Source: Ruminococcus sp. (GTDB taxonomy: Bacteria > Bacillota > Clostridia > Oscillospirales > Ruminococcaceae). Taken from it: DNA of 39,513 nt. Under the pieces are notes generated by a model, which had not been told where the DNA came from, did no database searches, and was given only the letters and a program-made list of their open reading frames with translations. Positions within the stretch are counted from its first letter, which is position 1. Each line of letters opens with the position of its first letter. This document shows positions 5,849 through 36,084 of this stretch, one piece after another. The stretch lies in contig JAFWTA010000002.1 in NCBI GenBank assembly GCA_017519145.1, positions 1-39,513 on the forward strand. The letters are read 5' to 3'. Both the position numbers and the translations under genes were made by a program.

Positions 5849-5917
5849 GTCTGACCTTCGTCTTTTGGGGGTTCTCGGGACACTTATCTACAGAGAACGA
5901 TGTGATGGAGGTCAGAC
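5849..5917 (+). other. two-tier stem-loop in the leader of the first sugar operon
   Basis: GTCTGACCT (5849-5857) pairs with AGGTCAGAC (5909-5917), and inside it GTTCTC (5871-5876) pairs with GAGAAC (5893-5898). The internal loop has 13 and 10 nt. No T-run follows, so it is not a standard terminator. It could be a processing or stabilising element, or a structured leader. Confidence 0.55.
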
Positions 5918-5960
5918 AGAAAAACTCAGAACAAAAGACATTTTGTGAGGTTGTATTCAG

Positions 5961-6845
5961 ATGAAAAACAAGACCCGAAATCAATGCGGAAGGAGGGGCG
6001 AGCGGGTATTCAGCAATATCTGCGTCATGCCCAGCCTTATAGGAGTGATGATATTCTTCTTCATTCCTTTCTGCATAGTAATTTACTACTCTCTTATCAA
6101 CAACCCTGTTCTAAAAGAATTTGTAGGTATAGAGAACTACACAAAGCTCTTCCACAATGCGGCTTTCACCAAGGCTGCGAAGAACACAGCGTTCTTCTCA
6201 CTGGTGTCGGTGCCGCTGTCGGTGATACTGGCTCTGGGACTGGCAATGCTCCTTGAGAGAAAGATCCCCGGAAAAAGCGTGTTCCGTACATTCTTCCTCA
6301 GCCCTCTCATGGTGCCTACGGCTTCCGTAGTCCTCGTGTGGCAGGTGCTGTTCCACAATCACGGTACCGTAAACCAGATCATCGAGCATTTCGGCGGTCA
6401 CACCGTTGACTGGCTGAAATCCCCCTACGGACAGGTGGTCATCATCCTGATGTTCCTGTGGAAAAATCTGGGATACAATATGATACTTTTCATGTCGGCG
6501 CTGTGTGCGATACCCCGCGACATCATCGAGGTAGCAGACCTTGAGGGAGCAAGCGGCTGGTACAAGTTCGTACATATAAAGCTCAGATACCTTTCACCGA
6601 CTATTCTTTTCGTGCTTATCCTTTCAATGATAAACTCCTTCAAGATATTCCGCGAGGTATACCTGCTGACGGGAAATTATCCTCAGGATAAGCTGTATAT
6701 GCTCCAGCACTTCATGAACAATACCTTCAACAGTCTCGATTATCAGAAGCTGTCGGCGGCTGCGGTGCTGTTTGCACTTATTATGATAGTGATAATGGCT
6801 GTCCTCCTCATCGCGGAGAACATCTTCGGAAAGGATGTGGAGTGA
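5961..6845 (+). CDS. sugar ABC transporter permease (MalF/UgpA type)
   Basis: This 294-residue inner-membrane permease has six hydrophobic segments. A cytoplasmic EAA-type loop at about 190-213 (EVADLEGASG, then the KLRYLSP region) would dock onto the ATPase; it is slightly divergent, with EVA instead of EAA. The N-terminus has the pattern CVMPSLIGVMIFFFIPF typical of carbohydrate-uptake class 1 permeases. It is the first of a permease pair, followed directly by a MalG-type partner. Sugar identity is unknown. The ribosome binding site is weak (GAGG at 5947-5950), which may lower expression or reflect regulation by the structured spacer upstream. Confidence 0.93.
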   Translation: MKNKTRNQCGRRGERVFSNICVMPSLIGVMIFFFIPFCIVIYYSLINNPVLKEFVGIENYTKLFHNAAFTKAAKNTAFFSLVSVPLSVILALGLAMLLERKIPGKSVFRTFFLSPLMVPTASVVLVWQVLFHNHGTVNQIIEHFGGHTVDWLKSPYGQVVIILMFLWKNLGYNMILFMSALCAIPRDIIEVADLEGASGWYKFVHIKLRYLSPTILFVLILSMINSFKIFREVYLLTGNYPQDKLYMLQHFMNNTFNSLDYQKLSAAAVLFALIMIVIMAVLLIAENIFGKDVE

Positions 6846-6846
6846 T

Positions 6847-7752
6847 ATGAAGCCGAAAAAAATTGGTGTAAGGGAACGCCGGAAGGTATTCAACATCTTC
6901 GTGTTCCTGTTCATACTGGCGGCGGCAGTATTGTTCCTGTTCCCGACGGTGCTTACGATAGCAAACTCGTTTATGACCTCAAACGAGATATCCGCCAACT
7001 ACGGCTCGATGTTCTCGAACATGACCGAGGAGAAAAAGACCTTCATCTCACAGAACGTGAACCTGAAGTTCATTCCCGACAAGGTCACCTTTGCTCAGTA
7101 CAAGGCGGTGCTGGTACAGAATTCTGACTATCTCATGAAGTTCTGGAATTCAGTCATACTGACAGTTCCCATCACAGTGTTCCAGATGATAGTGGCAATA
7201 CTCACTTCCTATGGTTTTGCAAGATATCCCAACAAATTCAAGAGCATCATCTTCTTTGCATATATCATACTGATGATAATGCCCTATCAGGTAACTCTTG
7301 TGCCGAACTTCCTTGTTGCTGAAAAGTTCAATATGCTCGACACAAGACGAGCCATAATCCTCCCCGCCATATTCTCACCCTTCAGCATATTCCTGCTGAC
7401 AAAGGTAATGCGCCGTATACCCATCTCCTATGTGGAGGCGGCTAAGCTTGACGGCGCAGGCGAGCTGAAGATACTTACCAAGATATACGTTCCGCTGTGC
7501 AAGGGCGCCATCGCTTCCATCGCTATGCTGGTATTCATCGACTACTGGAACATGGTGGAGCAGCCTCTGGTCCTTATGAAGGACGCAGCTTATCACCCCC
7601 TTTCGGTATTCCTCTCCCAGATAAATACGGGAGATATCGGTCTCGCCTTTGCGGTGGGAGTGGTATACATGATACCGACGGTGCTGATGTTCCTCTACGG
7701 AGAGGATTACCTCATAGAGGGAATAACCTACTCGGGCGGCATCAAGGGTTGA
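6847..7752 (+). CDS. sugar ABC transporter permease (MalG/UgpE type)
   Basis: This 301-residue permease is the partner of the preceding gene. It has an N-terminal membrane segment (about 15-40), an extracellular loop of about 55 residues, and then the transport core. A clear EAA loop lies at about 197-219 (EAAKLDGAG, then KIYVPL), which contacts the ATP-binding subunit. The ATG at 6847 was preferred: it follows the upstream stop (6843-6845) and a GGAG, whereas an in-frame ATG at 6835 lies inside the upstream gene. No ATPase gene is present in the operon, as is common in Firmicutes that share one MsmX/MalK-type ATPase among many importers. Confidence 0.93.
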   Translation: MKPKKIGVRERRKVFNIFVFLFILAAAVLFLFPTVLTIANSFMTSNEISANYGSMFSNMTEEKKTFISQNVNLKFIPDKVTFAQYKAVLVQNSDYLMKFWNSVILTVPITVFQMIVAILTSYGFARYPNKFKSIIFFAYIILMIMPYQVTLVPNFLVAEKFNMLDTRRAIILPAIFSPFSIFLLTKVMRRIPISYVEAAKLDGAGELKILTKIYVPLCKGAIASIAMLVFIDYWNMVEQPLVLMKDAAYHPLSVFLSQINTGDIGLAFAVGVVYMIPTVLMFLYGEDYLIEGITYSGGIKG

Positions 7753-7821
7753 TGAAAAGTTGATAAATGCGGTCTACAATACAATTAACAGAGCTATTCT
7801 CTCAGAAGGAGTAATCATAAT

Positions 7822-9552
7822 ATGAACGAAACAAAAGAAGTCAAGGATATATCTGCGGACAGCGGCGATAAAGAGACAAAGTCGCCCGCAAAAAGGAGAG
7901 AGCTCATAAAGACTCTCATCATAGTCTTTCTTGCCATCATGCTGGTGCTGACATTCTTCTCAAACACCATCATGAACAGGTCTCTGCCTGAGATATCGAC
8001 AGAGACAGTCGCTTCGGGAAAGCTTACCGAGCGTATCGAGAAGCGCGGCACCGTTGAAGCAAATCAGGCTTACAACGTCACCGTTGACGGCAACAGAGTC
8101 ATCGAAAAGATACATATAAAGACAGGTCAGGAGGTAAAGAAGGACGACGTTCTCTTTACAGTTAATACAGTGGACAACGAAAAGCTGGAGACAGAAGAGA
8201 CTGCGCTGGATACTCTCAAGCTTGAGTATGAGACAGCACTTCTCAAGGAGCCGCTGGATTATTCCTCCGAAAACCAGAAGATAAAGGCAGCCCGTGAAGA
8301 GCTCAACGATCTCATCGCAAAGCGCGACGCTGCAAGAGCAAATGACAGCAATGCAGCTTACGCAAAGGAAGAGTACAGACGCAACAAGTCAGAGCTTACA
8401 AGGCTTGAGGGCATACAGGAGAAGCTCCAGTCAACTATCAAGGCTATCGATGCCGATTCATATATGGATGCAGCTCCCGAGTACAGCGGCAACCTTGCTG
8501 CACTGTGCTCAGAGTACATGAATGCCGACGCCGACTACAAGTCCGCTTACGAGACCTATCAGATGGCTCTCGAGAGCGGCGAGAACGTGGAGAGCGCAAA
8601 GGCAGAAGCTGACGAAAAGGAAGCTGCAAGGAACTCCGCAAGAGAAAACTACATGAATGAGAAGAACAACATCCGCGGCGATCTTGTTTCACAGCTTGGC
8701 GATATCAGCGGTTCCATGGCTTCTCTCTCAGAGGCTGTTGAGAACTATACTGCCGAATACGGCGAGGGCGGCACAGATACATATGCTGCTCTGGCAGCTT
8801 CTGTTACCGAGAAGCAGAGCGCTCTTGAGGAACTTATCATAGAGCTGGAAAACACCAAGCGCAAGAACTCCATCACGGATAAGAAGGAAAACCTCGGCAT
8901 AGAGTCCAAGAAAAAGGCTCTTGAAAAGCAGCAGGAAAAGGTGGATAAGCTGAAAAAGGAAGCAAAGTCCACTGAAGTCAAGTCAAAGTATTCGGGTGTC
9001 GTAAGCTCCATAAACGTACAGCCCGATGCCACCACAACTCCCGAAGAGACTCTTGCTGTCATAGACCTTGCGGATGAGGGCTTCACAGTTGAAATAACTG
9101 TTGAGAATGAAAACCTCAAGAAGATCAAGAAGGGCATCGAAGCAGAGATAGTCAACAACTGGAACGGCGATATCAAGGCTGTTCTCAAGGAAATAAAGAG
9201 CGACAGCTCAGCAGGCGCAAAGAACAAGACACTGGTGTTCAGCGTTACGGGCGACGTTCAGACAGGCGACAGCCTCGACCTTTCCATACCGCTGGGAAGC
9301 GGCACCTATGATGCCATCGTTCCCAAGAACGCAGTTTACCCCAGTGATAAGGGACACTACGTTTATACCGTCCGTTCAAAGAATACTCCTCTCGGAAACC
9401 GCTACTATGCAGAAAAGGTAGAGGTGAACGTAGAGGCTTCGGATACGGCATCATGTGCTGTATCGGGCGGATTGAACAGAGGTGACTATATCATCACTGC
9501 TTCAAGCAAGCCCCTGAAGTCAGGTGATCAGGTCCGCATGAAGGATAAATAA
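7822..9552 (+). CDS. HlyD/MacA-like membrane-fusion (adaptor) protein
   Basis: This 576-residue protein has a cytoplasmic N-tail, one membrane segment (about 30-48), a beta domain with a lipoyl-like half (about 60-110), a long Ala/Glu/Lys-rich coiled coil (about 110-390, interrupted near 215-235 and 300-330), the second lipoyl half (about 395-425, KYSGVVSS), and a C-terminal beta-barrel region. This is the order found in HlyD, MacA and RND adaptor proteins. In Gram-positive bacteria such proteins usually pair with a MacB-type exporter, and the next gene does encode a MacB-core-like protein. Its place inside a sugar importer operon is unusual. A strong AGAAGGAG ribosome binding site precedes the start. 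Confidence 0.85.
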   Translation: MNETKEVKDISADSGDKETKSPAKRRELIKTLIIVFLAIMLVLTFFSNTIMNRSLPEISTETVASGKLTERIEKRGTVEANQAYNVTVDGNRVIEKIHIKTGQEVKKDDVLFTVNTVDNEKLETEETALDTLKLEYETALLKEPLDYSSENQKIKAAREELNDLIAKRDAARANDSNAAYAKEEYRRNKSELTRLEGIQEKLQSTIKAIDADSYMDAAPEYSGNLAALCSEYMNADADYKSAYETYQMALESGENVESAKAEADEKEAARNSARENYMNEKNNIRGDLVSQLGDISGSMASLSEAVENYTAEYGEGGTDTYAALAASVTEKQSALEELIIELENTKRKNSITDKKENLGIESKKKALEKQQEKVDKLKKEAKSTEVKSKYSGVVSSINVQPDATTTPEETLAVIDLADEGFTVEITVENENLKKIKKGIEAEIVNNWNGDIKAVLKEIKSDSSAGAKNKTLVFSVTGDVQTGDSLDLSIPLGSGTYDAIVPKNAVYPSDKGHYVYTVRSKNTPLGNRYYAEKVEVNVEASDTASCAVSGGLNRGDYIITASSKPLKSGDQVRMKDK

Positions 9553-9565
9553 GGTGGTGGACCTT

Positions 9566-10720
9566 ATGAGACCCTTAAAGAAAAAACTTACCATAGCAGC
9601 TGCTGCGGTCAACGCCGCCGCTATTATCGGAGCTGTGGTGCTGACGGCGCTGGGAAGCAGCGCTGCAAAGGCACAGAGCTACAATTATGCGGCAGACCGG
9701 TGGAGCAGCAGCGAAAAGAGCGAATACAGCCAGATAAGCTGTTTCTTCAGTCCCGATGCGGGGTTCAGTACCAACAGCGCAGGCGGTGTGAAGAACACGC
9801 TGCTCTCGGCACTGAAAACAGTTTCGGTGGAGCCCGTGGAGGGCGTTGATCTCGTCCCCGACGCTTACAGCGCCGTAGCAGGCACGGCAACGGTCTCGGG
9901 CGATGCCAGCGGCCGTTCGGAAGCAGAGCTTACCGCAGTGGGCGGGGATTACTTCTTTATGTTCCGCGACTTCAGGCTGCTGAGCGGCTCCTTCTTCGGC
10001 GAAAAAGACCTTATGCAGACAGGAGCGGTCATCGACAGACAGCTTGCGTGGAATCTTTACGGTTCCGATGAAGTCGCAGGCATGAACATCTATATAAACA
10101 ATGTCAAACTCTTTATCTCGGGAGTAGTAGATACTCCTTCAACAAAGCCTGAGAAGCAAAGCGCAGACAAAACTCCGAAGGCTTATATATCCTACTATGC
10201 TGCGGGACTCATCTTCGGCAGCGCCTCCGAACAGGGCGGCGTATCCGATACGGATACTGCGGTCCCCGAGTTCAGAAAGGTTACCTGCTATGAGTGCGTA
10301 GTCCCCGAGCCTGTTGAGAATTTCGGATACAGCACCGTAAAGGAGCATCTGGCAACAGAGTACAAGGGAAAGATCAGCATAGTCAACAACACAGAGCGAT
10401 TTACACCGAAAAAGAGGGTAAAGGCTCTGAAAAAGCTTGGCGATTCTGTCGTCGCAAAGGACGGCATCGTTTATCCCTTCTGGGAGAACGCATCAAGAAT
10501 GGTGGAGGTCAAGCTATCACTCATCTACGGAGCACGAAGACTGCTCCTTATCATACCGCTGATAACGGCACTGTGCCTGATAGTAATGGGATACAGATTG
10601 TTCCAGCGGAAAAAAGAAGGTCTGAAGAAAGCTGCGGCGGATGGCATCGAGGCGAAATGGAGATCGCTGAAGAGCCATATGCCGAAAAAGGCTGAGCAGA
10701 CCGCAGAAAAAGAAAGCTGA
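9566..10720 (+). CDS. MacB-core-like membrane protein (incomplete FtsX-type permease)
   Basis: This 384-residue protein has an N-terminal membrane segment (about 8-30), a large extracytoplasmic domain (about 35-310) with the MacB periplasmic-core pattern (GGDYFFMF, LLSGSFF, GAVIDRQLAWNLYG, INNVKLFISGVVDTP), one C-terminal membrane segment (about 322-345) and a basic tail. True MacB/FtsX permeases have four segments; here the final three are reduced to one and no ATPase gene is near. It may therefore be a structural partner of the adjacent adaptor rather than an active permease. The ATG at 9566 was chosen because AAGGTGG (9551-9557) sits 8 nt upstream; GTG codons at 9554 and 9557 overlap that site. 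Confidence 0.75.
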   Translation: MRPLKKKLTIAAAAVNAAAIIGAVVLTALGSSAAKAQSYNYAADRWSSSEKSEYSQISCFFSPDAGFSTNSAGGVKNTLLSALKTVSVEPVEGVDLVPDAYSAVAGTATVSGDASGRSEAELTAVGGDYFFMFRDFRLLSGSFFGEKDLMQTGAVIDRQLAWNLYGSDEVAGMNIYINNVKLFISGVVDTPSTKPEKQSADKTPKAYISYYAAGLIFGSASEQGGVSDTDTAVPEFRKVTCYECVVPEPVENFGYSTVKEHLATEYKGKISIVNNTERFTPKKRVKALKKLGDSVVAKDGIVYPFWENASRMVEVKLSLIYGARRLLLIIPLITALCLIVMGYRLFQRKKEGLKKAAADGIEAKWRSLKSHMPKKAEQTAEKES

Positions 10721-10786
10721 GGCACAGACCGAGGCAGCAAAAGAAAGTTCAATAAAAAATAAAAATCTGAAAAAAGAGGGATTATT

Positions 10787-13195
10787 ATGGAAAAAACATT
10801 TCTCAAACGCATTACAGCATTCTCCGCAGCACTTACAGTTATCGCAGGATCAGCAGTATCCTGCTCTAAGAGTGACAAGCCATCAGAAGGCAAGGTGAAG
10901 GACGCAGCTCAGCTCATGGCCGGTTCATACAAGACCCAGCAGATCGACTGCGATATCGTCAACCCTACTTCTATTGCAAGGATCGGTGACGATAAGATCG
11001 TCATTACAGGATTTGATGAGAGTAGGAATATTCCTACATTATACCTTACCGATAATGGTTTTTCGGAATTCAAGGAAATAAAGACAGAGCTTCCCGAGGT
11101 AGTGGATCAGGAGGTAAGCTACGATCCCTGTGTTGCACCCGACGGAGATATCATGATACTTGCTACATTTACCGATTACGGCGACGGTGAGAAGCCCGAT
11201 TTTGAGTCTCCCGACTTCAATCCCGACGAGTTCGATTATGAAGCGTACTATGAGAATATGTCATATTCATACAAGCTCTATGTTGTTGACATCGACGGAA
11301 AGGTAAAGTCCTCAGCCGATGTAACAGGTCTTGAGGAATTTCAGGACGACGAGAGCGGAAGCCTCAATATCGGCAGAGCTTCAGCTATAGGCGGCGGAAA
11401 GATGATCGCCACTGCATGGGGCGAGATGGAGGATTATAACATCATAATCAACTCCGACGGCAAGGTAGAAGGCGAGCTTGATCTCGGAAACAGCAACTAC
11501 ATCGACAGCTTCACCGCTATCGATGATGATACGATCGCAGTATGCGGCTATTTTGGCGGCAAGGAGTACGTCAAGTACCTCGATGCCGGAACTCTGAAGG
11601 AGACAGGCGAGCAGATCGACCTCTCGGAGGCAGGCCTTGAGGGTCAGATGGGAAGCGTGTTCAAGGGAACAGGCGACTATAAGCTCTATATAAACGGCTC
11701 ATCGGGTCTCTTCGGAATCACTGAGGACGGAAAGTCCACAGAGATCGTAAACTGGCTCGACTCTGATCTCGGCGACGGCGGTATACAGTCACTTGTCATT
11801 CTCGATGACGGTGATTTCGTGATCTGCTATAACGACTACAGCGGCGGAGACTTCGGCAACAGCGGTGCTTCGCTTTACAAGCTCACAAAGCGTGATGCTT
11901 CCGAAATGGAGAACACAAAGGTCATCACTGTCGGCGTTCTCTATGACGACTGGGCTGTAAAGGAGAAGATTTCCGCATACAATAAGAAGAATGACGATAT
12001 CCGCTTCAAGATGGTGGATTACAGCAAGTACGACAACTACGAGGAAGAGACAGGCAAGACACTGTCATCGGGCGCAGATCAGCTCAAGAAGGATATAGTT
12101 TCAGGCAATGCACCCGATATGATCGTTTCATATAACGGCGCTATCATCAGCAGCCTCTACAACAAGGGACTCTTTGTTGACCTCTATGAGTACATGGACA
12201 AGGACAGCGACATCAACAAGGACGACATCATGCCCAACGTGCTCAATGCCTGCGAGATCGACGGCAAGCTTCTCTCTATCGCACCGTCATTCAATGTAAG
12301 CACAATGATCGCCAAGAAGAAGTTTATTGATAAGGAAAACTGGACTCCCGATGACCTTATCGAGGCATATGAAAACCTTCCCGACGGTATGAGACTTACA
12401 TCACTCGACTGCAAGGAGCAGATGCTCTCATTCATGATGGGTGTTCTCAATAACTGTATAGATTATCAGAAGGGCACCTGCAACTTTGATACTCCCGAGA
12501 CAAGAAAGCTTCTTGCTTTCGTAGACCAGTTCCCGTCAAGCGAAGACCTTGTGGACTGGGAGGATCAGAGCGCTATGCAGGAGATGTTCTCCGAGGACAA
12601 CTTCAAGGAGGACAAGGTACTTGTTCAGGAGCTGTACATCTCAGACTTCCGCGAGTACACAAGAGAGGTCAAGGGCAGATACAAGGGCGATGACATCGTA
12701 TTCGTCGGCAACCCCACAACAGACGGCAGAGGCGCTGTTCTTTCACTTGACAAGCACTTTGCTATCCTTTCCAACGCAGAGGACAAGGACGTATGCTGGA
12801 ACTTCATCAAGGAATTCCTGTTACCTGCTGAGGACGGCGAGGAGAGTATGTACAGCTACGGCTTCCCCTCACTGAAGTCGGAATTCGACAAGCTTGCTGA
12901 CGAGAGCATGGAAAAGCCCAAGTACAAGGACGAGAACGGCAAGGAAGTAGAAGAAGATCTCACATACTATACGTCTTCCAAGGAGGTCAAGGTAGATCCT
13001 CTTACAAAGGAAGAGAGAGACTTCATCGTTGATTACATCGAGAGTGCTGACAACGTATCCGCTGACTTTGACCCTGAGGTCGAGTCCATCATAGAGGAAG
13101 AAATAATGGCATACATTGGCGGAGAAAAGACTGCCGATGAGGTCATCGATCTTATCCAGAGCAGAGTTTCAATACTCGTAAGCGAGCAGAGCTGA
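10787..13195 (+). CDS. lipoprotein: beta-propeller-like domain fused to sugar-binding protein
   Basis: This 802-residue lipoprotein starts with a signal peptide and a lipobox-like AVSC (Cys26). Residues of about 45-370 form repeated beta segments with strong internal patterning (for example the PDGDIMILA and DDGDFVICY strands), most like a beta-propeller. From about 380 the pattern is that of an extracellular solute-binding protein (family 1): ITVGVLYDD, then SGNAPDMIVSY, FVDLYEYMDKD, SIAPSFNVSTMIAKK, and a helical region near WNFIKEF (about 670-680). It probably captures the sugar for the two permeases at 5961 and 6847. The propeller may bind a partner or a polymer. It is the last gene before a strong terminator. 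Confidence 0.85.
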   Translation: MEKTFLKRITAFSAALTVIAGSAVSCSKSDKPSEGKVKDAAQLMAGSYKTQQIDCDIVNPTSIARIGDDKIVITGFDESRNIPTLYLTDNGFSEFKEIKTELPEVVDQEVSYDPCVAPDGDIMILATFTDYGDGEKPDFESPDFNPDEFDYEAYYENMSYSYKLYVVDIDGKVKSSADVTGLEEFQDDESGSLNIGRASAIGGGKMIATAWGEMEDYNIIINSDGKVEGELDLGNSNYIDSFTAIDDDTIAVCGYFGGKEYVKYLDAGTLKETGEQIDLSEAGLEGQMGSVFKGTGDYKLYINGSSGLFGITEDGKSTEIVNWLDSDLGDGGIQSLVILDDGDFVICYNDYSGGDFGNSGASLYKLTKRDASEMENTKVITVGVLYDDWAVKEKISAYNKKNDDIRFKMVDYSKYDNYEEETGKTLSSGADQLKKDIVSGNAPDMIVSYNGAIISSLYNKGLFVDLYEYMDKDSDINKDDIMPNVLNACEIDGKLLSIAPSFNVSTMIAKKKFIDKENWTPDDLIEAYENLPDGMRLTSLDCKEQMLSFMMGVLNNCIDYQKGTCNFDTPETRKLLAFVDQFPSSEDLVDWEDQSAMQEMFSEDNFKEDKVLVQELYISDFREYTREVKGRYKGDDIVFVGNPTTDGRGAVLSLDKHFAILSNAEDKDVCWNFIKEFLLPAEDGEESMYSYGFPSLKSEFDKLADESMEKPKYKDENGKEVEEDLTYYTSSKEVKVDPLTKEERDFIVDYIESADNVSADFDPEVESIIEEEIMAYIGGEKTADEVIDLIQSRVSILVSEQS

Positions 13196-13263: not shown

Positions 13264-13300
13264 GGCGCTGCCGCCCGAACAACGGCAGCGCCCTTTCCTT
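13264..13300 (+). terminator. terminator of the first sugar operon
   Basis: GGCGCTGCCG (13264-13273) and CGGCAGCGCC (13283-13292) form a perfect 10-bp GC-rich stem with a 9-nt loop, followed by CTTTCCTTTA. It is a strong hairpin with a T-rich but imperfect tail. Confidence 0.85.
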
Positions 13301-19959: not shown

Positions 19960-20106
19960 TACAAAACGTAGAATGCAGCACAGATTTTACAGTTTTTTAA
20001 TAATAGTAAATTTCGTACTGTCCGGCAGCAAGATCGGCAGAAAATACTTGGGAAAACTCACAGATATTCGGCAAGGTATTTGTGCAGTTCGATCAGAGAA
20101 TACGTT

Positions 20107-20194
20107 ATTTAGCTAAATTGTGTGATGTAAAATATATTATTTATAATACGGACACATTCCGTTTCTTGACATTGTACTATAAATTTGATATACT
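20107..20194 (+). promoter_or_regulatory. promoter of the large sugar operon with palindromes
   Basis: TTGACA (20166-20171), a 17-bp spacer and TATACT (20189-20194) form the promoter. Upstream are a perfect 12-nt palindrome, ATTTAGCTAAAT (20107-20118), and an inverted repeat, ACGGA-CACAT-TCCGT (20148-20162), that ends 3 bp before the -35. Both are candidate regulator sites. The 450-base gap between the divergent operons holds no gene. Confidence 0.8.
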
Positions 20195-20213
20195 GACTAT
20201 TAGATGGAAAATT

Positions 20214-20284
20214 GCAGTTTGGCAGAACTGCGGTCAGGCTGACTGTGCGCATGATCCCCGACCGAGGGAGCTTGCGCTTTTTTT
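20214..20284 (+). promoter_or_regulatory. possible attenuator in the leader of the large sugar operon
   Basis: Downstream of the promoter lie a hairpin GCAGTT-6 nt-AACTGC (20214-20231), a smaller GTCA-GGC-TGAC (20233-20243), and a terminator-like stem: GCGCA (20247-20251) with TGCGC (20273-20277), an inner CCC/GGG, and a T7 run (20278-20284). The start codon comes only 35 nt later, so the structure would stop transcription before the operon unless relieved. Confidence 0.6.
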
Positions 20285-20318
20285 GTTTATTCGTCCGATA
20301 AAAGGGGGTGGAGCGGAA

Positions 20319-23237
20319 GTGAACAGATTATTGCAGAGACTTTTTTCAGGGGCAGCAGCCCTTGTTTTCTGCGGCACGTCACAGATATTCCCTGTGGCTG
20401 CCGAGGACACATCTGCACAGGCGGCAATGGCGGCGGACTACTACGCTATGGCTTCCCCCGACAGTGAGATGCTCAGCTTCGGGGACTACTATGATCTTCA
20501 TTCCGCAGAGCCCCGACCCGATACGGAAATAGTCATAGAGGGAGCGGACTATGCTTCTTCGGCAGGGGGAGAATTCCGCAAGGGCAGCTTCACCGACGAC
20601 TTCGGCGAGGAGCGCGGCAATGTGCTGCTCTGGAACAGCGCCGACGGCGAGGTATCCTATCGCTTCACGGTGCCCGAGACCGGAAATTACTGCCTTTCGG
20701 CGGATTACTGCCCCATGATATCGAACAGCACCTACATAGAGCTGGGGCTGGAGATAGACGGACAGGCTCCCTATGATACCGCATCAAGGCTTACACTCGG
20801 CAGGGTATGGGTCAACGAAAAGGACATATACACGGATATACGCGGAAATCAGGTGCGTCCTGCTCAGGTGCAGAAGTCGGCGTGGAGGAGCTGCTTCTTC
20901 GGTGACGTTGACGGACTTTTCAGCGAGCCTCTGTTCTTTTATCTGGAAAAAGGCTCCCATGAGCTGAAGCTGACCTCGGAAAGGGCTCAGCTCGCCATAG
21001 AAAGGCTGTGCTTCTGCCAGCGTGAGGAGCTTCCCGATCACAGCAGCTATGCAGCTTCCGCAGGCGCGGATATCACCGTTGAGGGCACAGCCTCCGCACT
21101 TTTCAGGATAGAGGGGGAGAATGCGGCGTTCAAGTCCGACCCGACGCTCTATCCCACATACGACAACAGCAGCTACCTTGCCTCGCCCTCTGACCCGAGG
21201 AAAATGGTCTACAACACCCTCGGCAGCGGAAACTGGAAAAAAGCGCTCCAGTCCGTCACATGGGAGATACCTGCGGAGGAGACAGGTGTAGGGGGCTGGT
21301 ATAAAATAGGCATAAAGGCACGGCAGGATCAGATAAGAGGCTTCGACTCCGAGCGCCGTATCTACATCGACGGCAAGGTGCCATGCAAAGAGCTTGACGG
21401 CGTGAAGTTCCACTACGATACGGACTGGTCTGTGACTACACCGAAAAGCGGCGGCGAGCCCGTGTATATCTGGCTGGAGGGCGGAATGAGCCATACCATT
21501 ACAATGGAGGCTGTCCCCGGCGAGATAGGCGGCTGTCTCCGCAGGCTTGACAGTGCCGTAAAGGAGCTTAACACCTATTACCGCAGAGTTCTGATGATAA
21601 CGGGACCCGCTCCCGATAAATACACGGATTATTACGTTCACGAGAAGATACCCGAGCTGGTGGACAAGTTCACCGGCATCTCCGCCGAGCTCAAGGACGT
21701 TCAGAAGGAGATAGAGTCTATTTCGGGCAGCAGCGGCACCGAGGCGGCTGCCATAGAGAATATGGCGGTTATTCTTGACAAGTGTACTGCCAAGCCCCTG
21801 AAGATACCCTCGTATCTTTCGCAGATAAAGACAGGTATCACCTCACTTTCAGCGTGGATGAGAGACAACCGCGACCAGCCCCTTGAGGTAGACTATATCG
21901 AGTTCGCGTCCGCGGACCGCAGCTTCACAAGCTGTAAGGAGAAGCTGGGCAAGTCGCTGAAATTCGGCTTTGAGGGCTTCATCGGTTCATTCTTCGAGGA
22001 CTACACCACCCTCTCCGATGTTTCGGGCGAGGACGCCATCGACGTCTGGGTGGCTCTGGGCAGAGATCAGGCACAGGTGGTCAAGGAGATGACGGAGAAC
22101 CAGTTCATGCAGGAAACAGGCATACCCGTTTCCGTTAACCTTGTTACAGGCGGCGTTGTGGAGGCCACTATTGCGGGAAAGGGGCCCGACGCGGCACTTT
22201 TCCTCGGGGGAGAGTTCCCCGTAAATCTGGCAGCCCGTGACCTTCTTGTGGATCTTTCTCAGTTTGACGACTTTGAGGAGGTAAAGGGACGCTTCCAGAA
22301 AAACGCCATGACGCAGTACACCTACAACGGCGGCTGCTACGGAATCCCCGTCAGTCAGACCTTCCCCATGATGTTCTACCGCACCGATATACTGACGGAG
22401 CTGGGCTTCACCTCTCCGCCCGAGACATGGAGCGGACTTATCGATATGCTGCCTGCGCTCCAGCGCAGATATATGTCGGTGGGACTTGTCCTGCCGCCCA
22501 ATGATATATCTCCTGCCACGGAATGCGGCCATACCTTTGCAATGCTGCTGCTCCAGAAGGGGCAGAACTACTATAACCCTGAGCAGACCGCCTCCGCTCT
22601 GGACACCACCGCGGCGGTGCAGTCCTTTGAGGAGTGGACGGACTTCTACACCAAGTACAGCTTCGAGCAGGTCTACGACGGGTTCAGCAGGTTCAGGACA
22701 GGGGAGTACCCCATAGTTATCGCGAATTATACCTTCTTCAACCAGCTTACCGCCGCTTCTCCCGAGATAAACGGCCTGTGGGACTTCTGTCCCGTGCCCG
22801 GCACCGAGAGAGAGGACGGAACTGTTTCCCACGCGGCAAATTCAAGCGGCTCGGGAGCGGTCATCTTCAAAAAGGTGAAGAACAAGGAGAACGCATGGCG
22901 CTTTATCAAGTGGTTCACAGACACCGAAACACAGGTGAGGTATGCCGCTCAGATAGAGGGACTCATGGGAACTATGGGAAGATTTGACACGGCGAATACC
23001 GAGGCTCTCGGGCAGATGTCATGGTCGTCCGACGAGCTTGCAAGGCTCCGCGCCCAGCAGGAGGAGCTGACGGAGATACCCGTTACCCCTGCGTCCTACG
23101 CGGTTACCAGAAATATCATGAACGCCTTCCGCGAGACCATCAACGAGGGCGCAAATCCCCGTGATACCCTTATATGGTACAACAGGGACATAAACGACGA
23201 AATAACGCGAAAGCGTAAAAACTTAGGACTTGAATAA
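20319..23237 (+). CDS. large multidomain extracellular solute-binding protein
   Basis: This 972-residue secreted protein starts with a signal peptide (about 1-29, cleavage near PVAA-ED; no convincing lipobox). Two beta-rich modules follow, at about 65-240 and 258-410, each beginning with a similar phrase (EIVIEGADY, LFRIEGENA) and resembling carbohydrate-binding jelly-roll modules. A helical, coiled-coil-like linker (about 410-530) leads to a family 1 solute-binding domain (about 555-950: GKGPDAALFLGG, GGCYGIPVSQTFPMMFYRTDIL, ENAWRFIKWFTD). The GTG start at 20319 follows GGAG by 5 nt, and the frame's upstream part lies before the promoter. It would capture a glycan for the adjacent permeases. 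The missing lipobox suggests it stays at the membrane by other means or is shed. Confidence 0.85.
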   Translation: MNRLLQRLFSGAAALVFCGTSQIFPVAAEDTSAQAAMAADYYAMASPDSEMLSFGDYYDLHSAEPRPDTEIVIEGADYASSAGGEFRKGSFTDDFGEERGNVLLWNSADGEVSYRFTVPETGNYCLSADYCPMISNSTYIELGLEIDGQAPYDTASRLTLGRVWVNEKDIYTDIRGNQVRPAQVQKSAWRSCFFGDVDGLFSEPLFFYLEKGSHELKLTSERAQLAIERLCFCQREELPDHSSYAASAGADITVEGTASALFRIEGENAAFKSDPTLYPTYDNSSYLASPSDPRKMVYNTLGSGNWKKALQSVTWEIPAEETGVGGWYKIGIKARQDQIRGFDSERRIYIDGKVPCKELDGVKFHYDTDWSVTTPKSGGEPVYIWLEGGMSHTITMEAVPGEIGGCLRRLDSAVKELNTYYRRVLMITGPAPDKYTDYYVHEKIPELVDKFTGISAELKDVQKEIESISGSSGTEAAAIENMAVILDKCTAKPLKIPSYLSQIKTGITSLSAWMRDNRDQPLEVDYIEFASADRSFTSCKEKLGKSLKFGFEGFIGSFFEDYTTLSDVSGEDAIDVWVALGRDQAQVVKEMTENQFMQETGIPVSVNLVTGGVVEATIAGKGPDAALFLGGEFPVNLAARDLLVDLSQFDDFEEVKGRFQKNAMTQYTYNGGCYGIPVSQTFPMMFYRTDILTELGFTSPPETWSGLIDMLPALQRRYMSVGLVLPPNDISPATECGHTFAMLLLQKGQNYYNPEQTASALDTTAAVQSFEEWTDFYTKYSFEQVYDGFSRFRTGEYPIVIANYTFFNQLTAASPEINGLWDFCPVPGTEREDGTVSHAANSSGSGAVIFKKVKNKENAWRFIKWFTDTETQVRYAAQIEGLMGTMGRFDTANTEALGQMSWSSDELARLRAQQEELTEIPVTPASYAVTRNIMNAFRETINEGANPRDTLIWYNRDINDEITRKRKNLGLE

Positions 23238-23239
23238 AT

Positions 23240-23340
23240 AAGCCCTCAGCCCTTAGCCGTTAGCCATCAGGGGAGCGGCTGTGTTTCTTGCAGGGCTGAG
23301 TTCGGCTATCATATGTAGGGAACGCCGCCCTCGGCGTTCC
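23240..23340. repeat. composite intergenic repeat, copy B
   Basis: The start (about 23240-23275) repeats AGCCCTTAGCC, TTAGCCAT, AGG and AGCGGCT words seen in copy A at 4117. It is followed by a perfect palindrome, GGAACGCCG-CCCT-CGGCGTTCC (23319-23340), without a T-run. It sits inside the large sugar operon between the binding protein and the first permease, so as RNA it may affect the ratio of the two. Confidence 0.6.
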
Positions 23341-23368
23341 GAAAAAATGCTGAAAGGAGTGTGAAAAA

Positions 23369-24286
23369 ATGGCGGTCAAAACTCAGAAGCGTGAGAAAGG
23401 CGCTCTCTGGCGCGATATAAAGCGCAATAAAGCCTGCTACGGTATGCTTGCGCCCTTTATGATATTCTTCATACTCTTTACGGCTGTCCCCGTGCTGATG
23501 TCCCTGCCTATGGGCTTTACGGACTTCGATATGGCAAGGCCGCCCAAATTCGTGGGGCTTTCCAACTTCACCACCCTTTTCTTCTCCGACAAGATATTCA
23601 TGCGCTCCATAAGGGTGACTATCGTATTCGCCCTGCTTACGGGACCTGTCAGCTATGTGCTGTGCTTCCTGCTGGCATGGCTCATAAACGAGATGCACCC
23701 GAAGCTCAAGACCTTCTTCACACTCATATTCTACGCCCCCTCAATGGCTAACGTGTATACGGTGTGGAAGCTTATTTTCAGCGGCGATATGAACGGTTAT
23801 CTCAACTCCTTCCTCATTGACCTCGGCATCATCAACGCTCCCGTGCAGTGGCTCACCGACGGCAGATACGTCCTCGGAGTCACCATAGTGGTGCAGCTGT
23901 GGATATCCCTCGGAGCAGGCTTTCTTGCCCTCCGCGCGGGCTTCCAGAACATCGACCGCTCCATGTATGAGGCGGGAGCCATCGAGGGCATACGCACACG
24001 CTGGCAGGAGCTCATATACATCGTTATCCCATCAATGGGACCCCAGCTCATGTTCGCGGCGGTAATGCAGATAGTGAGCTCCTTTACCGCAGGCACAGTC
24101 GCCCAGAACCTTGTGGGCTTCCCCAGTACCGACTACAAAGCCCATACCATCATGACCCATGCCTTTGACTACGGCTGGCAGCGCTTTGAGATGGGCTATG
24201 CCTCGGCTATATGTATGATACTTTTCGCTGCCATGTTCCTGCTGAACAAGCTCATCAGCAAGGTGCTGGGCAAGTATATGGACTGA
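23369..24286 (+). CDS. sugar ABC transporter permease (MalF/LplB type), first pair
   Basis: This 305-residue permease has six hydrophobic segments and the EAA loop YEAGAIEGIRTRWQE, then IPSMGPQLM (about 196-225), which docks on the ATPase. The N-terminal pattern CYGMLAPFMIFFILFTAVPVLMS is typical of CUT1 family permeases. AAAGGAG precedes the ATG by about 9 nt. It is separated from the binding-protein gene by 130 nt containing a strong palindrome, while its partner permease begins 12 nt after its stop. Confidence 0.93.
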   Translation: MAVKTQKREKGALWRDIKRNKACYGMLAPFMIFFILFTAVPVLMSLPMGFTDFDMARPPKFVGLSNFTTLFFSDKIFMRSIRVTIVFALLTGPVSYVLCFLLAWLINEMHPKLKTFFTLIFYAPSMANVYTVWKLIFSGDMNGYLNSFLIDLGIINAPVQWLTDGRYVLGVTIVVQLWISLGAGFLALRAGFQNIDRSMYEAGAIEGIRTRWQELIYIVIPSMGPQLMFAAVMQIVSSFTAGTVAQNLVGFPSTDYKAHTIMTHAFDYGWQRFEMGYASAICMILFAAMFLLNKLISKVLGKYMD

Positions 24287-24298
24287 GGAGGCGAAGCT

Positions 24299-25177
24299 GT
24301 GGCAGAGATAAATACCGCGAAGCTTCGCGGCTCAAACAGACAGGCAGGCAGAAAGTACGGCGGCAGTGTGGTCATATTCCTTTTCCTTGCACTGCTGGGA
24401 CTTTTCATGTTCCTGCCCATATATCTTACGGTCATAATGTCAATAAAGCCTGTGGAGGAGCTCTTTGTCTTTCCGCCCAAGCTCTATGCCGTAAGACCTA
24501 CCCTTGATAATTTCAGGGATATGTTCAGGGTGCTCCACCAGAACAGGGTGCCCTTTTCGAGATATGTGTTCAACAGCATATTCGTAACCGTGACGGTAAC
24601 GGTGCTTCAATGCGTGTTCTCGTCAATGGCGGCATTCGTGCTGGCAAAGTGCAGATTCCCGGGAAGCAAATTCATCAACGGCGTTATCGTCGTGGCGCTG
24701 CTGTACCAGAGCAGCGTAATATACATCATGCAGTACATCGTCATGGCAAAGCTCCACATGATAGACACCTACATGGCGCTGATATTCCCTGCCATAGCCT
24801 CGCCTATGGGACTTTTTCTCATGAGGCAGTCCATAAGTCAGGTGCCCGACTCCATGATAGAGGCGGCAAAGGTGGACGGAGCAGGACTTTTCCGCATATG
24901 CTGGCAGATAGTCATACCCAACCAGAAGCCTGCACTCATGACGCTGATAATATTCGCGTTTCAGGGCGCATGGAACATCCAGACAGGCTCCGTGGTGTTC
25001 AGGGAGCAGTACAAGACCCTGCCTACGGTGGTCACACAGGCGGCTTCCTCGGGACTTGCAAGAGCAGGCGTGGCAATGGCAGCGGCAGTTTTCCTGCTGA
25101 TACCGCCCATAGTCATATTCATGCTGGCACAGAGACAGGTCATCGAGACCATGGCGCATTCGGGAATAAAGGAATAA
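24299..25177 (+). CDS. sugar ABC transporter permease (MalG type), first pair
   Basis: This 292-residue permease starts at a GTG preceded by GAGGAGG (24285-24291) that overlaps the stop of the upstream permease gene, so translation is probably coupled. It has six membrane segments and the EAA loop MIEAAKVDGAGLFRICW, then IPNQKPALM (about 186-213). It ends in IETMAHSGIKE, matching the usual MalG-type tail. Partner of the permease at 23369. Confidence 0.93.
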   Translation: MAEINTAKLRGSNRQAGRKYGGSVVIFLFLALLGLFMFLPIYLTVIMSIKPVEELFVFPPKLYAVRPTLDNFRDMFRVLHQNRVPFSRYVFNSIFVTVTVTVLQCVFSSMAAFVLAKCRFPGSKFINGVIVVALLYQSSVIYIMQYIVMAKLHMIDTYMALIFPAIASPMGLFLMRQSISQVPDSMIEAAKVDGAGLFRICWQIVIPNQKPALMTLIIFAFQGAWNIQTGSVVFREQYKTLPTVVTQAASSGLARAGVAMAAAVFLLIPPIVIFMLAQRQVIETMAHSGIKE

Positions 25178-25211
25178 TATACGGTTCAACTGTCGGAAGG
25201 GAGTGAGGCAA

Positions 25212-26702
25212 GTGAAAAGATATACGGGCGTGTTTGCAGCGGCACTTGCCGCACTGACACTTTTGGCACCATGCTCCTCGGCGGCTTCGGGAGAGCCCTA
25301 CGAGAGCTATAACTATGACAACTGGGGGGACGCCATACCCTCACAGGCAGGATATACCGCAGACCGCGCTGTTTCGGGATTTGATCTCGGTGTGGGAGCC
25401 TTCAGCGACCCCGGCGACATCTTCTTTGACGATGAGGGCGTGCTCTACATCACCGATACGGGCAACAACCGCATAATCGCTGCGGACAGCAGTCTCGAGA
25501 AGGTCATAAAGGTATATGACCGCTTCACCATGCCCGACGGCTCCGAGACCACCCTCAACAAGCCCATGGGTGTTTTCGTGTCGGCGGAGAACGGCTTCAT
25601 ATACATTGCCGACAGCGATAATTCCAGAGTCCTCATCTCCGACAAGGAGGGCAATGTTCAGAGCGAGATAACCAAGCCCGAGTCCGGGGTCTATGATCAG
25701 AAGCGTACATTCCTGCCCCAGCGTGTCATCGCCGACAAGGGCGGCAACGTCTATGTGGTGCTGGGAAATATAACCACGGGCGCAGCAATGTTCGCTCCCG
25801 ACGGCAGCTTCTCGGGCTTTTACGGTGCAAACCGCGTGGAGCCTACTGCAAAGATAATCGGCAACTACATAAAGAGCATATTCATGTCCGACGAGAAGAA
25901 AGCCCACAGGACGAGAACTGTTCCCTCGGGCATAACCTCATTCGATATCGACGGGGACTTCATATTCACCTGCACAGCCTCGGGCACTCAGACCACCGAT
26001 ACGGTGAAGAAGCTCAACGCCGCAGGCAGGAACATCTTCGCCAACATGGAGCTTACCTTCGGGGACTACACTCCCATGTACGACACCTCGCGGAACAAGG
26101 TCCTCTCGCCGTCCATCGTGGATATCGACGTATCCGAGGACGGCTGCATAAACTGCCTTGACTTTACCACGGGCAGGGTGTTCCAGTACGATGAGGACTG
26201 CAATCTGCTGTTCATCACAGGCACCATCGCCAAGCAGACAGGCGGTTTTGACCATGTGGCGGCGGTGGAGTCCCGCGGCAGCGAGCTATATGTCCTCGAC
26301 TCAATGAAGGACACCATAACCGTGTTCAGGGAGACATCCTTCGGCAGCATAGTCCATGAGGCGGCGGCTCTCCACAATGCAGGATATTATGAAGAAGCCC
26401 TCGGACCGTGGCAGGAGGTGCTGAAAAGAGACGGCAACTACAACAGAGCCTATGTGGGAGTGGCTTCCGCTCTGCTCAGGCAGGGGGACTACAAAGGCGC
26501 AATGAAATATGCAAAGCTTGCGGATGCAGGCGATATATACAACAAGGCTTTCGAGGGCAGGCGCAGGGAGTTCCTCAAGGAGAACTTCCCCGTCATCGCC
26601 GCAGTCATCGTCCTTGCCGCAGGGGCGCTCATAGTCCGCGGCAGGCTGAAAAAAAGGCACAGAGCAGTTACTCATAAGGGAGAGGAGGAGCAGCAGTCAT
26701 GA
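25212..26702 (+). CDS. NHL-repeat and TPR membrane-anchored extracellular protein
   Basis: This 496-residue protein has a signal peptide (about 1-25), then a short conserved-looking block (YNYDNWGDAIPSQAGY, about 33-48), then NHL-type beta-propeller repeats (for example DPGDIFFDDEGVLYITDTG at 67-85 and MGVFVSAENGFIYIADSDNSR near 119-139). A TPR-like helical region follows near 390-440 (GYYEEALGPWQEVL), then one membrane segment (about 460-478) and a basic tail. The propeller faces outside with a C-terminal anchor. It probably binds a partner or a polymer; no catalytic motif is seen. The GTG at 25212 fits the AAGGGAG site better than the GTG at 25203. Its stop overlaps the next start (ATGA), indicating tight coupling. 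Confidence 0.85.
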   Translation: MKRYTGVFAAALAALTLLAPCSSAASGEPYESYNYDNWGDAIPSQAGYTADRAVSGFDLGVGAFSDPGDIFFDDEGVLYITDTGNNRIIAADSSLEKVIKVYDRFTMPDGSETTLNKPMGVFVSAENGFIYIADSDNSRVLISDKEGNVQSEITKPESGVYDQKRTFLPQRVIADKGGNVYVVLGNITTGAAMFAPDGSFSGFYGANRVEPTAKIIGNYIKSIFMSDEKKAHRTRTVPSGITSFDIDGDFIFTCTASGTQTTDTVKKLNAAGRNIFANMELTFGDYTPMYDTSRNKVLSPSIVDIDVSEDGCINCLDFTTGRVFQYDEDCNLLFITGTIAKQTGGFDHVAAVESRGSELYVLDSMKDTITVFRETSFGSIVHEAAALHNAGYYEEALGPWQEVLKRDGNYNRAYVGVASALLRQGDYKGAMKYAKLADAGDIYNKAFEGRRREFLKENFPVIAAVIVLAAGALIVRGRLKKRHRAVTHKGEEEQQS

Positions 26703-27328
26703 TGGATCTTACACAGAGACAGTGGGTGAAGTATGCTGTCATGCACCCTGTTGAGGGCTTCGAGGATATGCGCTGGAAGAAGTCGGGCTCGCTGAAGATA
26801 GCCGCCCTGATAATAGTGCTGCTCTTTTTCGGAGAGATAGCCTTCGGCAGGCTCTACGGCTTCCAGTTCTATATCGCCTACGACAAGACCTTCAATATAA
26901 TCCCCTATATCGTTCGGAGCTTCGTGCTTTTCGGCGCGTGGACAGTGGGGAACTGGTCGGTGTGTACCCTCCTTGACGGCGAGGGTACGCTGAAAAATAT
27001 CTGCATTTACAGTGCCTATGCACTCATACCATATACGGTACAGCTCTATATCAACGTCATACTCTCCCATTTTCTCATACGGGACGAGTATGTGTTCATG
27101 CAGATAATCGAGCTCATAGGCGTGGGATGGACGGTGATACTGCTGTTCTCGGCGATAAAGTCGGTTCATCAGTACTCCTTCGGCAAGACCGTCCTCGCCA
27201 TAGTGCTGACCATAGCGGCAATGCTCATCATGCTGTTCCTGCTGGTGCTGCTGATGTCGCTGATACAGCAGATCTTCATATTCATATCCACCGTTTACAC
27301 CGAGCTCTCATACAGGGCGCGTGTCTGA
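26699..27328 (+). CDS. YIP1-like multi-pass membrane protein
   Basis: This 209-residue protein has five hydrophobic segments (about 34-52, 66-88, 100-120, 133-155 and 163-195) and the N-terminal pattern VMHPVEGFEDMRWKKSGS, followed by membrane segments typical of bacterial YIP1-family proteins. The role of the family in bacteria is not established; it could be a membrane component or scaffold of the transporter. It overlaps the preceding gene by 4 nt (ATGA), with AGGAGGAG just upstream. Its conserved position beside NHL/TPR and DUF5696-type proteins is recalled from other Firmicutes and should be verified. Confidence 0.8.
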   Translation: MMDLTQRQWVKYAVMHPVEGFEDMRWKKSGSLKIAALIIVLLFFGEIAFGRLYGFQFYIAYDKTFNIIPYIVRSFVLFGAWTVGNWSVCTLLDGEGTLKNICIYSAYALIPYTVQLYINVILSHFLIRDEYVFMQIIELIGVGWTVILLFSAIKSVHQYSFGKTVLAIVLTIAAMLIMLFLLVLLMSLIQQIFIFISTVYTELSYRARV

Positions 27329-27340
27329 AAGGCGGTGCCC

Positions 27341-30136: not shown

Positions 30137-30156
30137 TTACAGGGAAGGAGGAAAAT

Positions 30157-31095
30157 ATGAGCGGAAAGACTGCCCCTGCGGCAGAAAGCAGGAAAAAGCG
30201 CCGCGTAATGTCATATCAGCGGCGGAAATCAATGTACGGCTACGGCTTCATAAGCCTGTGGCTCATAGGAACAATACTGTTCTTCCTCATCCCTCTGGGA
30301 AAGTCGCTGTGGTACTCGTTCTGCGATGTTTCCGTAGAGCCCGGTGCGCTGAAAACGCAGTTCGTGGGACTGAAAAACTACAACGTCGTCCTCAATGAGG
30401 ACCCCTACTATACGGACTACCTTATCGACACCCTGCTGGAGACCCTGTGGAAGACACCGCTGATACTGGTTTTCTCCCTGTTCATCGCGGTCATACTCAA
30501 TCAGAAGTTCAGGGGAAGGACTCTGGCAAGAGCAGTTTTCTTCCTGCCCGTCATTATCGCCACGGGACCTGTTTTCAGAATAATCAGCGGCGATATGGAG
30601 TCCACGGGCAACGCAGGCGCCGAGCAGTTCTCCACCATGTTCTCCACGGACCTTGTGGGCGAGCTCATGGAGTTCCTCGGCATTTACGGCATAAGCGACA
30701 GGATGAACACCTTTATCACTGCTGTGGCGGACAACGTCTTCGGCATAGTCTGGAGCTCGGGAATACAGATTCTTCTGTTCCTTGCAGGCCTTCAGAACAT
30801 CTCCAAGGACGTCAGGGAAGCCGCACAGATGGAGGGAGCTACAGCATGGGAGTACTTCTGGAAGATAGTCTTCCCCTCGGTGAGCCCCTTCATACTGGCT
30901 AACCTTATATTCACCGTCATAGACTCCTTTACCAACCCCATGAACAGCGTCATGAACCGTATCGTGGCGATGAAGAATCAGTGGGAGTTCGGAGGAGCCT
31001 CCGCTATGGCGTGGGTGTACTTCGCCATAGTTCTGGGAGCCATAGGCGTTTTTGCATGGCTGACAGGCAAATTCATACAATACGAGACCGACTGA
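30157..31095 (+). CDS. sugar ABC transporter permease (MalF type), second pair
   Basis: This 312-residue permease has a long basic N-tail (about 1-25), six membrane segments and the EAA loop VREAAQMEGATAWEYFW, then FPSVSPFIL (about 223-252). It carries an extracellular insert of about 50 residues (about 145-195) between membrane segments, larger than in the first-pair permease. GGAAGGAGG precedes the ATG. It is 20 nt after the DUF5696-like gene, in the same operon. Confidence 0.92.
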   Translation: MSGKTAPAAESRKKRRVMSYQRRKSMYGYGFISLWLIGTILFFLIPLGKSLWYSFCDVSVEPGALKTQFVGLKNYNVVLNEDPYYTDYLIDTLLETLWKTPLILVFSLFIAVILNQKFRGRTLARAVFFLPVIIATGPVFRIISGDMESTGNAGAEQFSTMFSTDLVGELMEFLGIYGISDRMNTFITAVADNVFGIVWSSGIQILLFLAGLQNISKDVREAAQMEGATAWEYFWKIVFPSVSPFILANLIFTVIDSFTNPMNSVMNRIVAMKNQWEFGGASAMAWVYFAIVLGAIGVFAWLTGKFIQYETD

Positions 31096-31108
31096 GGAGG
31101 TGAGAAGC

Positions 31109-35766: not shown

Positions 35767-36084
35767 ACGTTGAGTGCGCTGATATGCGCGCTGACTGCAG
35801 AAGATATGCGTTGAAGCGGAAGGTTGCTGCCGGTATGGCAGGTAATTTCCGTGGAGTATGTCCGATTTTAAACCGGGCGAATGGGATATCGAACACAGTT
35901 TGTGGTTATTCTTCACGCAGCTTGCGTATGCGTGGATTATGCTCTTTTTGTGCTCATATTTTGTTAAGACGGCTCGGAAAACAACGGTTTTTCGAGTTTT
36001 TTTATGAGATGAGGCATGAAACACACGGAAACGTGTGATATTCCAATCTGCGTCCCCGTAATTAATTCCAAGGAGGCGAAAATA
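35767..36084 (+). promoter_or_regulatory. structured leader of the S10 operon with terminator
   Basis: The leader contains hairpins AGTGCGC/GCGCGCT (35773-35792), CTGCC/GGCAG (35827-35841), CACA/TGTG (35894-35904) and CACGCA/TGCGTG (35914-35934). A terminator-like stem pairs CTCGG with TCGAG across an A-run/T-run (35973-35996), followed by T7 (35997-36003). No protein gene is credible in it. The arrangement fits transcription attenuation of ribosomal protein genes; the ligand, for example L4 as in some bacteria, is not known here. Confidence 0.65.

Follow-up and report, generated by a model that had tools for sequence, protein, structure and literature searches.

To our knowledge, adaptor proteins of the MacA/HlyD kind have been known as partners of exporters. 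Passages of two reviews place these adaptors with exporters and MacB-like partners (PMC4446572, PMC5985334), and part of a further paper describes an ATPase common to several sugar importers in B. subtilis and S. pneumoniae (PMC7658222). No description of a system joining an importer to an adaptor and a MacB core was found in the open-licence full-text literature. Such a combination was encoded by cassette A, five genes at positions 5961 to 13195 of the window, the whole stretch of 39,513 nucleotides analysed here (Ruminococcus sp., assembly GCA_017519145.1, contig JAFWTA010000002.1), in a genome of 65 contigs and 3,168,983 bases. The hybrid cassette is real, coherent and widespread in this group. 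Judged from sequence, it is probably a CUT1-type ATP-binding cassette (ABC) machine whose outer side consists of MacA/MacB-derived parts and which is driven by an importer ATPase, the uptake of a glycan or glycoconjugate being its likeliest job; this reading was favoured with limited confidence.

All five open reading frames (ORFs) of cassette A were confirmed and were co-directional on the + strand, with gaps from A1 to A5 of -11 (an 11-base overlap of A1 and A2), 69, 1 and 66 bases. The features were as follows.

5859 to 5887, + strand: promoter-like motif CGTCTTTT-N14-CACTTAT, a putative promoter 73 nucleotides 5' of the A1 start.
5961 to 6845, + strand: A1, CUT1 permease of the MalF/UgpA type (permF), 294 amino acids (aa); Pfam BPD_transp_1, 65.1 bits (cut-off 26.4).
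6835 to 7752, + strand: A2, CUT1 permease of the MalG/UgpE type (permG), 305 aa; BPD_transp_1, 35.6 bits (cut-off 26.4), with an EAA loop and the motif WNMVEQP.
7822 to 9552, + strand: A3, MacA/HlyD-type adaptor, 576 aa; HlyD_3, 29.1 bits (cut-off 22.2).
9554 to 10720, + strand: A4, MacB periplasmic core between two transmembrane (TM) segments, 388 aa; MacB_PCD, 37.9 bits (cut-off 27).
10787 to 13195, + strand: A5, solute-binding lipoprotein, 802 aa; SBP_bac_8, 46.5 bits (cut-off 27), at residues 396-694.
13264 to 13292, + strand: terminator-like hairpin 3' of A5, with a 10-pair stem (-21.3 kcal/mol) and a weak T-run.

The initial annotation had described two CUT1 permeases and a lipoprotein interleaved with an HlyD/MacA adaptor and a MacB-core protein, all in one direction with short gaps and one terminator. 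The Pfam families and the gaps of -11 to 69 bases bore this out, as did the hairpin, weak in its T-run and absent from the terminator scan (loop limit 8) because its loop is 9. The best NCBIfam match of A1 was UgpA, at 100.9 bits and far under the equivalog cut-off of 335. A5 also passed the cut-off for SBP_bac_1, and its lipobox was AVSC. Hydropathy gave six segments in A1, six in A2, one in A3 and two in A4. A3 scored slightly under the cut-off of NCBIfam RND_mfp (90.6 versus 94.9 bits); its build agreed with the RND/HlyD adaptor pattern (lipoyl halves, a hairpin stretch and one N-terminal TM anchor), and the adaptors had a conserved membrane motif (LTFFSNTIMNxSLP).

Linkage was counted in a set of 80 loci from named genomes, the top 80 of 584 relatives of the adaptor among at least 596 stretches with the pattern, which leans to near kin since it holds the top matches to the adaptor, and in a set of 17 loci (16 from family and phylum searches, plus one more), two of which (L038 and L052) are identical to records of the larger set (L078 and L135). 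The genome searches scored the best candidates in each genome only (9, 15, 5, 6 or 4, by search). Among the matches listed, Ruminococcus flavefaciens ND2009 (L057) was closest to the window, with an adaptor 85% identical. Near the adaptor, the 80-locus set had the MacB-like gene in 79 loci, permG in 77, permF in 74 and the solute-binding protein (SBP) in 76. The single MacB-like miss (L126) was on a contig cut 242 bases on, and the three permG misses were all at contig ends. All five genes were on one strand within 3.5 kb of the adaptor in 71/80 loci; five of the nine incomplete loci were at contig ends (L092, L120, L126, L129, L133), two had no SBP (L066, L073), and two had no recognised first permease (L083, L107). 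The 17-locus set had the MacB-like gene in all 17, the permeases in 16 and the SBP in 13, the permease miss being a locus that starts at a contig end and whose genome has its permG on another contig (L041). The order permF-permG-adaptor-MacB-like was kept in 16 loci where the contig permits, except in L048 (last two swapped). The SBP was 3' in most Ruminococcus loci and 5' in several Lachnospiraceae and Clostridia records. A record titled as an Alistipes senegalensis metagenome-assembled genome (L087) had a Ruminococcus-type cassette and is probably a mislabelled bin.

The permeases of these loci formed a single clade. At 58% identity or more, permG occurred in 15 of 148 family genomes, the same 15 that had strong adaptor matches, and the next best match was at 44%. 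Eighteen further family genomes were fetched, ten for a weak adaptor match and eight by permease score; 17 of the 26 family genomes with permG at or below 44% were fetched, plus G142. An adaptor was beside the permeases in all eight relatives chosen by permease score, full in six and reduced in two (L186, L188), and in the more distant loci it was recognised by score in 22 of 23 and by eye in L186. The phylum survey (398 genomes) gave ten permG matches of at least 365 bits in eight genomes, with the next score at 227; of the ten, four were already part of the query alignment, and the other six, from five genomes, were new. All ten adjoined an adaptor match, the rows being paired by eye among the matches listed. 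No adaptor was found beside four permG loci of the lower score group, one of which (L196) ends 1.5 kb past permG.

In the permG tree, whose outgroup branches were long, 50 adaptor-type rows were on one side of a branch (support 100/99), and the 26 window-type rows were one sub-branch (100/99), nearest to L190-L193 (91/91). Private motifs of permF (WKNxGY and FKxFREx..GxYPxxxxYxLQHxxNN) and of permG (WNMVEQP and PLSxxL) hardly varied among 92 sequences of the window branch and 23-24 from more distant loci, some rows (e.g. L188) differing slightly. Neither the E. coli permeases MalF/G and UgpA/E nor the other two permease pairs in the window had the full motifs, with single residues recurring among them. 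The EAA loops were recognisable in A1, A2 and the clade permeases. Several private residues of permF and permG aligned with MalF columns near residues that touch maltose. A chance neighbourhood was ruled out by the linkage counts, the score gap of the permG survey and the single permease clade; the linkage clearly recurred elsewhere, and the proposal of the initial annotation that importer and efflux-type parts are one conserved system was upheld.

MacB has four TM segments. A4 had one hydrophobic segment on either side of its core domain and no Walker (ATP) motif. Among 95 window-branch A4 proteins, two segments were counted in 90, one in 3 and three in 2; E. coli MacB had five by the looser segment count. 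MacB_PCD was matched by 52/52 A4 homologues scanned, with no FtsX family among their matches, and in the profile comparison with the PDB A4 matched MacB (3ftj; E 5.8e-8). The initial annotation likewise described a MacB-core protein with few membrane segments. In more distant loci, 16 MacB-like subunits had 3-6 segments, most of them at least four; a stricter count gave two for those of L178 and L180. L170, L179 and L187 had no recognised gene of this type. The core region of the distant subunits matched A4 in profile comparison (E 5.5e-13 to 1.4e-8). Because most distant relatives have more segments and a matching core region, the most fitting view of A4 is that it descends, in reduced form, from a MacB-like subunit with more membrane segments.

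A UgpC/MalK-type ATPase was encoded inside the operon of six relatives (L190-L193, L175 and L134, the last in the branch of the window). Five of these scored 431-468 bits against NCBIfam UgpC (cut-off 432), with L175 falling 1.3 bits short, and that of L191 was typed by Pfam only. The genome of the window (94% complete) gave a single MalK OB domain match, on another contig (UgpC, 484.6 bits). A motif scan of 120 operon runs, in which genes can go unnoticed (a broken UgpC-like ORF in L180 did), recognised no MacB/FtsE-like ATPase; the ATPases with two motifs were six of 370-392 aa, all UgpC/MalK-type by profile, and two neighbouring proteins (572 and 623 aa, 4-5 TM segments). The cassette would be classed as a CUT1 importer whose outer subunits derive from MacA/MacB rather than as a MacAB system, since tests for a MacB-type ATPase, an FtsX domain and the MacB number of segments were negative.

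The profile of 47 SBPs had its best match in C. thermocellum CbpC (7x0o; E 1.8e-34). The N-terminal part of A5 had weak WD40 matches at residues 146-301 (E 0.003-0.008) and single weak Pfam propeller matches, and as these WD40 matches are weak, a beta-propeller in the N-terminal ~350 residues is rated probable only. A figure legend on five sugar-ABC loci of C. thermocellum names acrA and does not state the locus (from the part of PMC9601137 that was available).

In the favoured reading, permeases A1 and A2 would be the membrane core, driven by a UgpC/MsmX-type ATPase, the gene for which lies elsewhere in the genome of the window and, in some relatives, within the operon itself. A3 and A4 would together make up a scaffold anchored in the membrane at its outer face, which would dock the wall-embedded A5, with its propeller and solute-binding domain, and orient it over the permeases for the uptake of a glycan or glycoconjugate. 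The physical complex, the docking role, the direction, the cargo and the use of the ATPase were inferred.

In Ruminococcus, the cassette shared a rare promoter-like motif with other genes. The motif CGTCTTTT-N13..17-CACTWAT, counted in a looser form, occurred 5' of A1 in 34/108 loci, the window included (L038 and L078 being one record in this count), and all records bearing it were Ruminococcus or of the same genus, except L068 (titled Oscillospiraceae bacterium). Both strands of 4.25 Mb of locus sequence held 38 matches. The motif was defined on the loci of this count, and independent tests came from the genome of the window and the genus genomes, in which the permF matches partly repeat the same loci. 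Across 100 genus genomes there were 219 copies in 79 genomes, versus 27 for the reversed pattern. The next gene after 30 of the copies was permF in 6, a sigma factor in 6, an A5-like SBP in 4, a lipoprotein in 7 (one weak) and none in 7; after 40 further copies, in list order, these were 9, 12, 5, 6 and 8, respectively. The sigma factor was a protein with Sigma70 regions 2 and 4, of the extracytoplasmic function (ECF) type. Nineteen sigma ORFs of at least 190 aa (18 distinct genes) were behind the motif, and an overlapping or adjoining partner with one TM segment was present in 19/19. The genome of the window had three copies, one 5' of A1, one 5' of the sigma gene and one 5' of two lipoproteins, the latter two as follows.

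L206:8377-10556 (contig C36): ECF-type sigma factor and overlapping one-TM partner, a putative anti-sigma factor, behind the motif.
L205:6845-9632 (contig C27): two large lipoproteins of no known family, behind the motif.

No Pfam family was above its cut-off in the outer ~400 residues of the one-TM partner. A GH95 glycosidase gene diverged beside the two lipoproteins, possibly a hint at fucosylated glycans. Further A5-like binding proteins were elsewhere behind the motif (L210, L212, L213, L233, L243, L244, L246, L258, L262), and from such motif-controlled SBPs several receptors may serve one transporter. The ECF sigma factor is predicted to act on the motif and so to control the cassette, SBPs and lipoproteins in Ruminococcus. 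Sigma control as a general trait was rejected: the sigma gene was missing in 13 of 14 carriers outside Ruminococcus and weak in the other (81.7 bits, with a stop), and none was found in 26 genomes without a window-type cassette, two of which (G025, G098) hold a more distant one. Its absence from these 13 carriers suggests that the tie to the sigma factor was gained within one lineage by a cassette that already existed. An inverted repeat at ~5850-5921, 5' of A1, was considered as a structured leader RNA and discarded; its arms were kept in L057 and not in most others, its inner motif was kept in many, and Rfam gave no match there.

Several observations weigh against the uptake reading. CbpC bound no sugar tested, its pocket was blocked by a loop and the transporter mutant grew normally (in the part of PMC9601137 that was available); in contrast, earlier binding of cellodextrins G3-G5 by CbpC is cited in passages of PMC3492117 and PMC3990059, and the null and positive reports are not reconciled. 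No SBP of the A5 family was found adjoining the cassette in six loci (L042, L043, L046, L051, L066, L073). A diverged second copy in the genome of the window (L170:12371-17662, contig C65 of G000), with an SBP, two permeases and an adaptor, had no adjoining MacB-like gene. The branch medians of hairpin length and SBP size rose together (94/460, 187/770 and 275/807 for 9, 9 and 88 loci), which speaks for the favoured reading; inside the branches their rank correlation was weak (0.33, 0.15 and 0.28). The association was mostly between the three branches and could reflect shared history.

Import was taken as the default, and mechanical or signalling work outside the cell as its main rival. In the latter, ATP use at the permeases would move the A3/A4 core and the lipoprotein outside, with little or no net import, in tasks such as wall or glycan handling, sensing or receptor release. 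MacB acts outside the cytoplasm and moves no substrate through the membrane in which it sits, according to part of a review (PMC5985334), the charged-residue motifs of the permeases were nearly invariant across the clade, CbpC as the nearest solved SBP has a blocked pocket, and the ECF sigma factor in Ruminococcus has a membrane-bound partner that presumably binds it. This rival was rated unlikely, as solute-binding lipoproteins were kept in 76 of the 80 loci, EAA loops and importer ATPase were retained, and some operons held several SBPs. A broader version is doubtful: that the cassette defines a distinct ABC class in which an importer motor drives a wall-reaching assembly of MacA/MacB-derived parts with propeller receptors and, in Ruminococcus, its own ECF sigma factor, acting outside by mechanotransmission or signalling rather than by simple import. 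Another rival would place two machines in the operon: a common sugar importer, and an exporter or sensor made of the adaptor and the MacB-like protein, linked to it by shared regulation alone. Against this stand the absence of a recognised MacB-type ATPase nearby (motif scan), an A4 with two membrane segments and no FtsX match, and the permeases, which group as a single clade tied to adaptors and have private residues; the compared CUT1 permeases lacked the full motifs. That arrangement was considered quite improbable, even with adaptors and MacB homologues usually serving export or sensing (passages of PMC5985334).

The adaptor bears on a further alternative, in which it would form a tube across the wall and pass long sugars on to the permeases. 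Between its lipoyl halves A3 had 271 residues versus 93 in E. coli MacA, a difference in favour of such a conduit and the basis on which the hairpin length fits a reach into the wall zone. Short hairpins in L182-L193 and reduced adaptors, read by eye to be without lipoyl and hairpin parts, beside permeases of the same clade (L186, L188 and the second copy at L181:13142-13582) point the other way; since these adaptors occur there, the association does not require a tube. The conduit was rated very improbable. The suggestion of the initial annotation that polymers are guided through the wall found no support.

Elsewhere in the window, cluster B (20082-32140) encoded two pairs of CUT1 permeases, an SBP with an extended N-terminal part, and NHL-propeller/TPR, Yip1 and DUF5696 proteins, the last at 533 bits. 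It was considered as a part of the cassette A machine and rejected, being contiguous in 2/80 loci only (L074, which is R. flavefaciens FD-1, and L116). Strong DUF5696 matches were present in 13/15 cassette carriers versus 32/133 non-carriers, with seven weak matches excluded (Fisher p 3e-6, uncorrected for relatedness), and this co-occurrence is a lead only; no mention of DUF5696 was found in the open-licence full-text literature. An S10-Clostridia ribosomal leader RNA was present at 35803-35880 (47.3 bits), before ribosomal protein genes.

A lasting, clade-defining bond of an adaptor, an ATPase-less MacB core and importer permeases would widen the roles of such parts. It may bear on "sugar transporters" that bound no sugar tested, such as that of CbpC, and it opens direct tests in rumen cellulose degraders of subunit assembly, the driving ATPase and receptor ligands.

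SigI/RsgI-type systems are polysaccharide-sensing sigma systems, and they resemble the present case in that a sigma factor and an adjoining one-TM partner seem to control an envelope regulon, but no known sensing domain was found in the cassette-linked partner. The MacAB/YknXYZ tripartite systems (type VII ABC) share a MacA-type adaptor beside a MacB-periplasmic-core protein; they differ in that A4 has no ATP motif or FtsX match and two segments, no MacB-type ATPase gene was recognised at the cassette loci, and the cassette is tied to importer permeases. C. thermocellum transporter C (CbpC, Cthe_2125-2128) is similar in its binding protein, which among solved structures gave the best match to the binding domain of A5, and different in that the solved CbpC chain, at 438 residues, has no propeller, whereas A5 has a probable one. 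CUT1 importers with a shared MsmX/UgpC ATPase (MalFGK2 and the B. subtilis MsmX systems; described in part of PMC7658222) likewise have two EAA permeases and a lipoprotein SBP, and relatives of the cassette have a UgpC/MalK-type ATPase in the operon or elsewhere; unlike them, the cassette has an adaptor and a MacB-core protein as constant subunits, permease residues of its own and a large SBP with a probable propeller.

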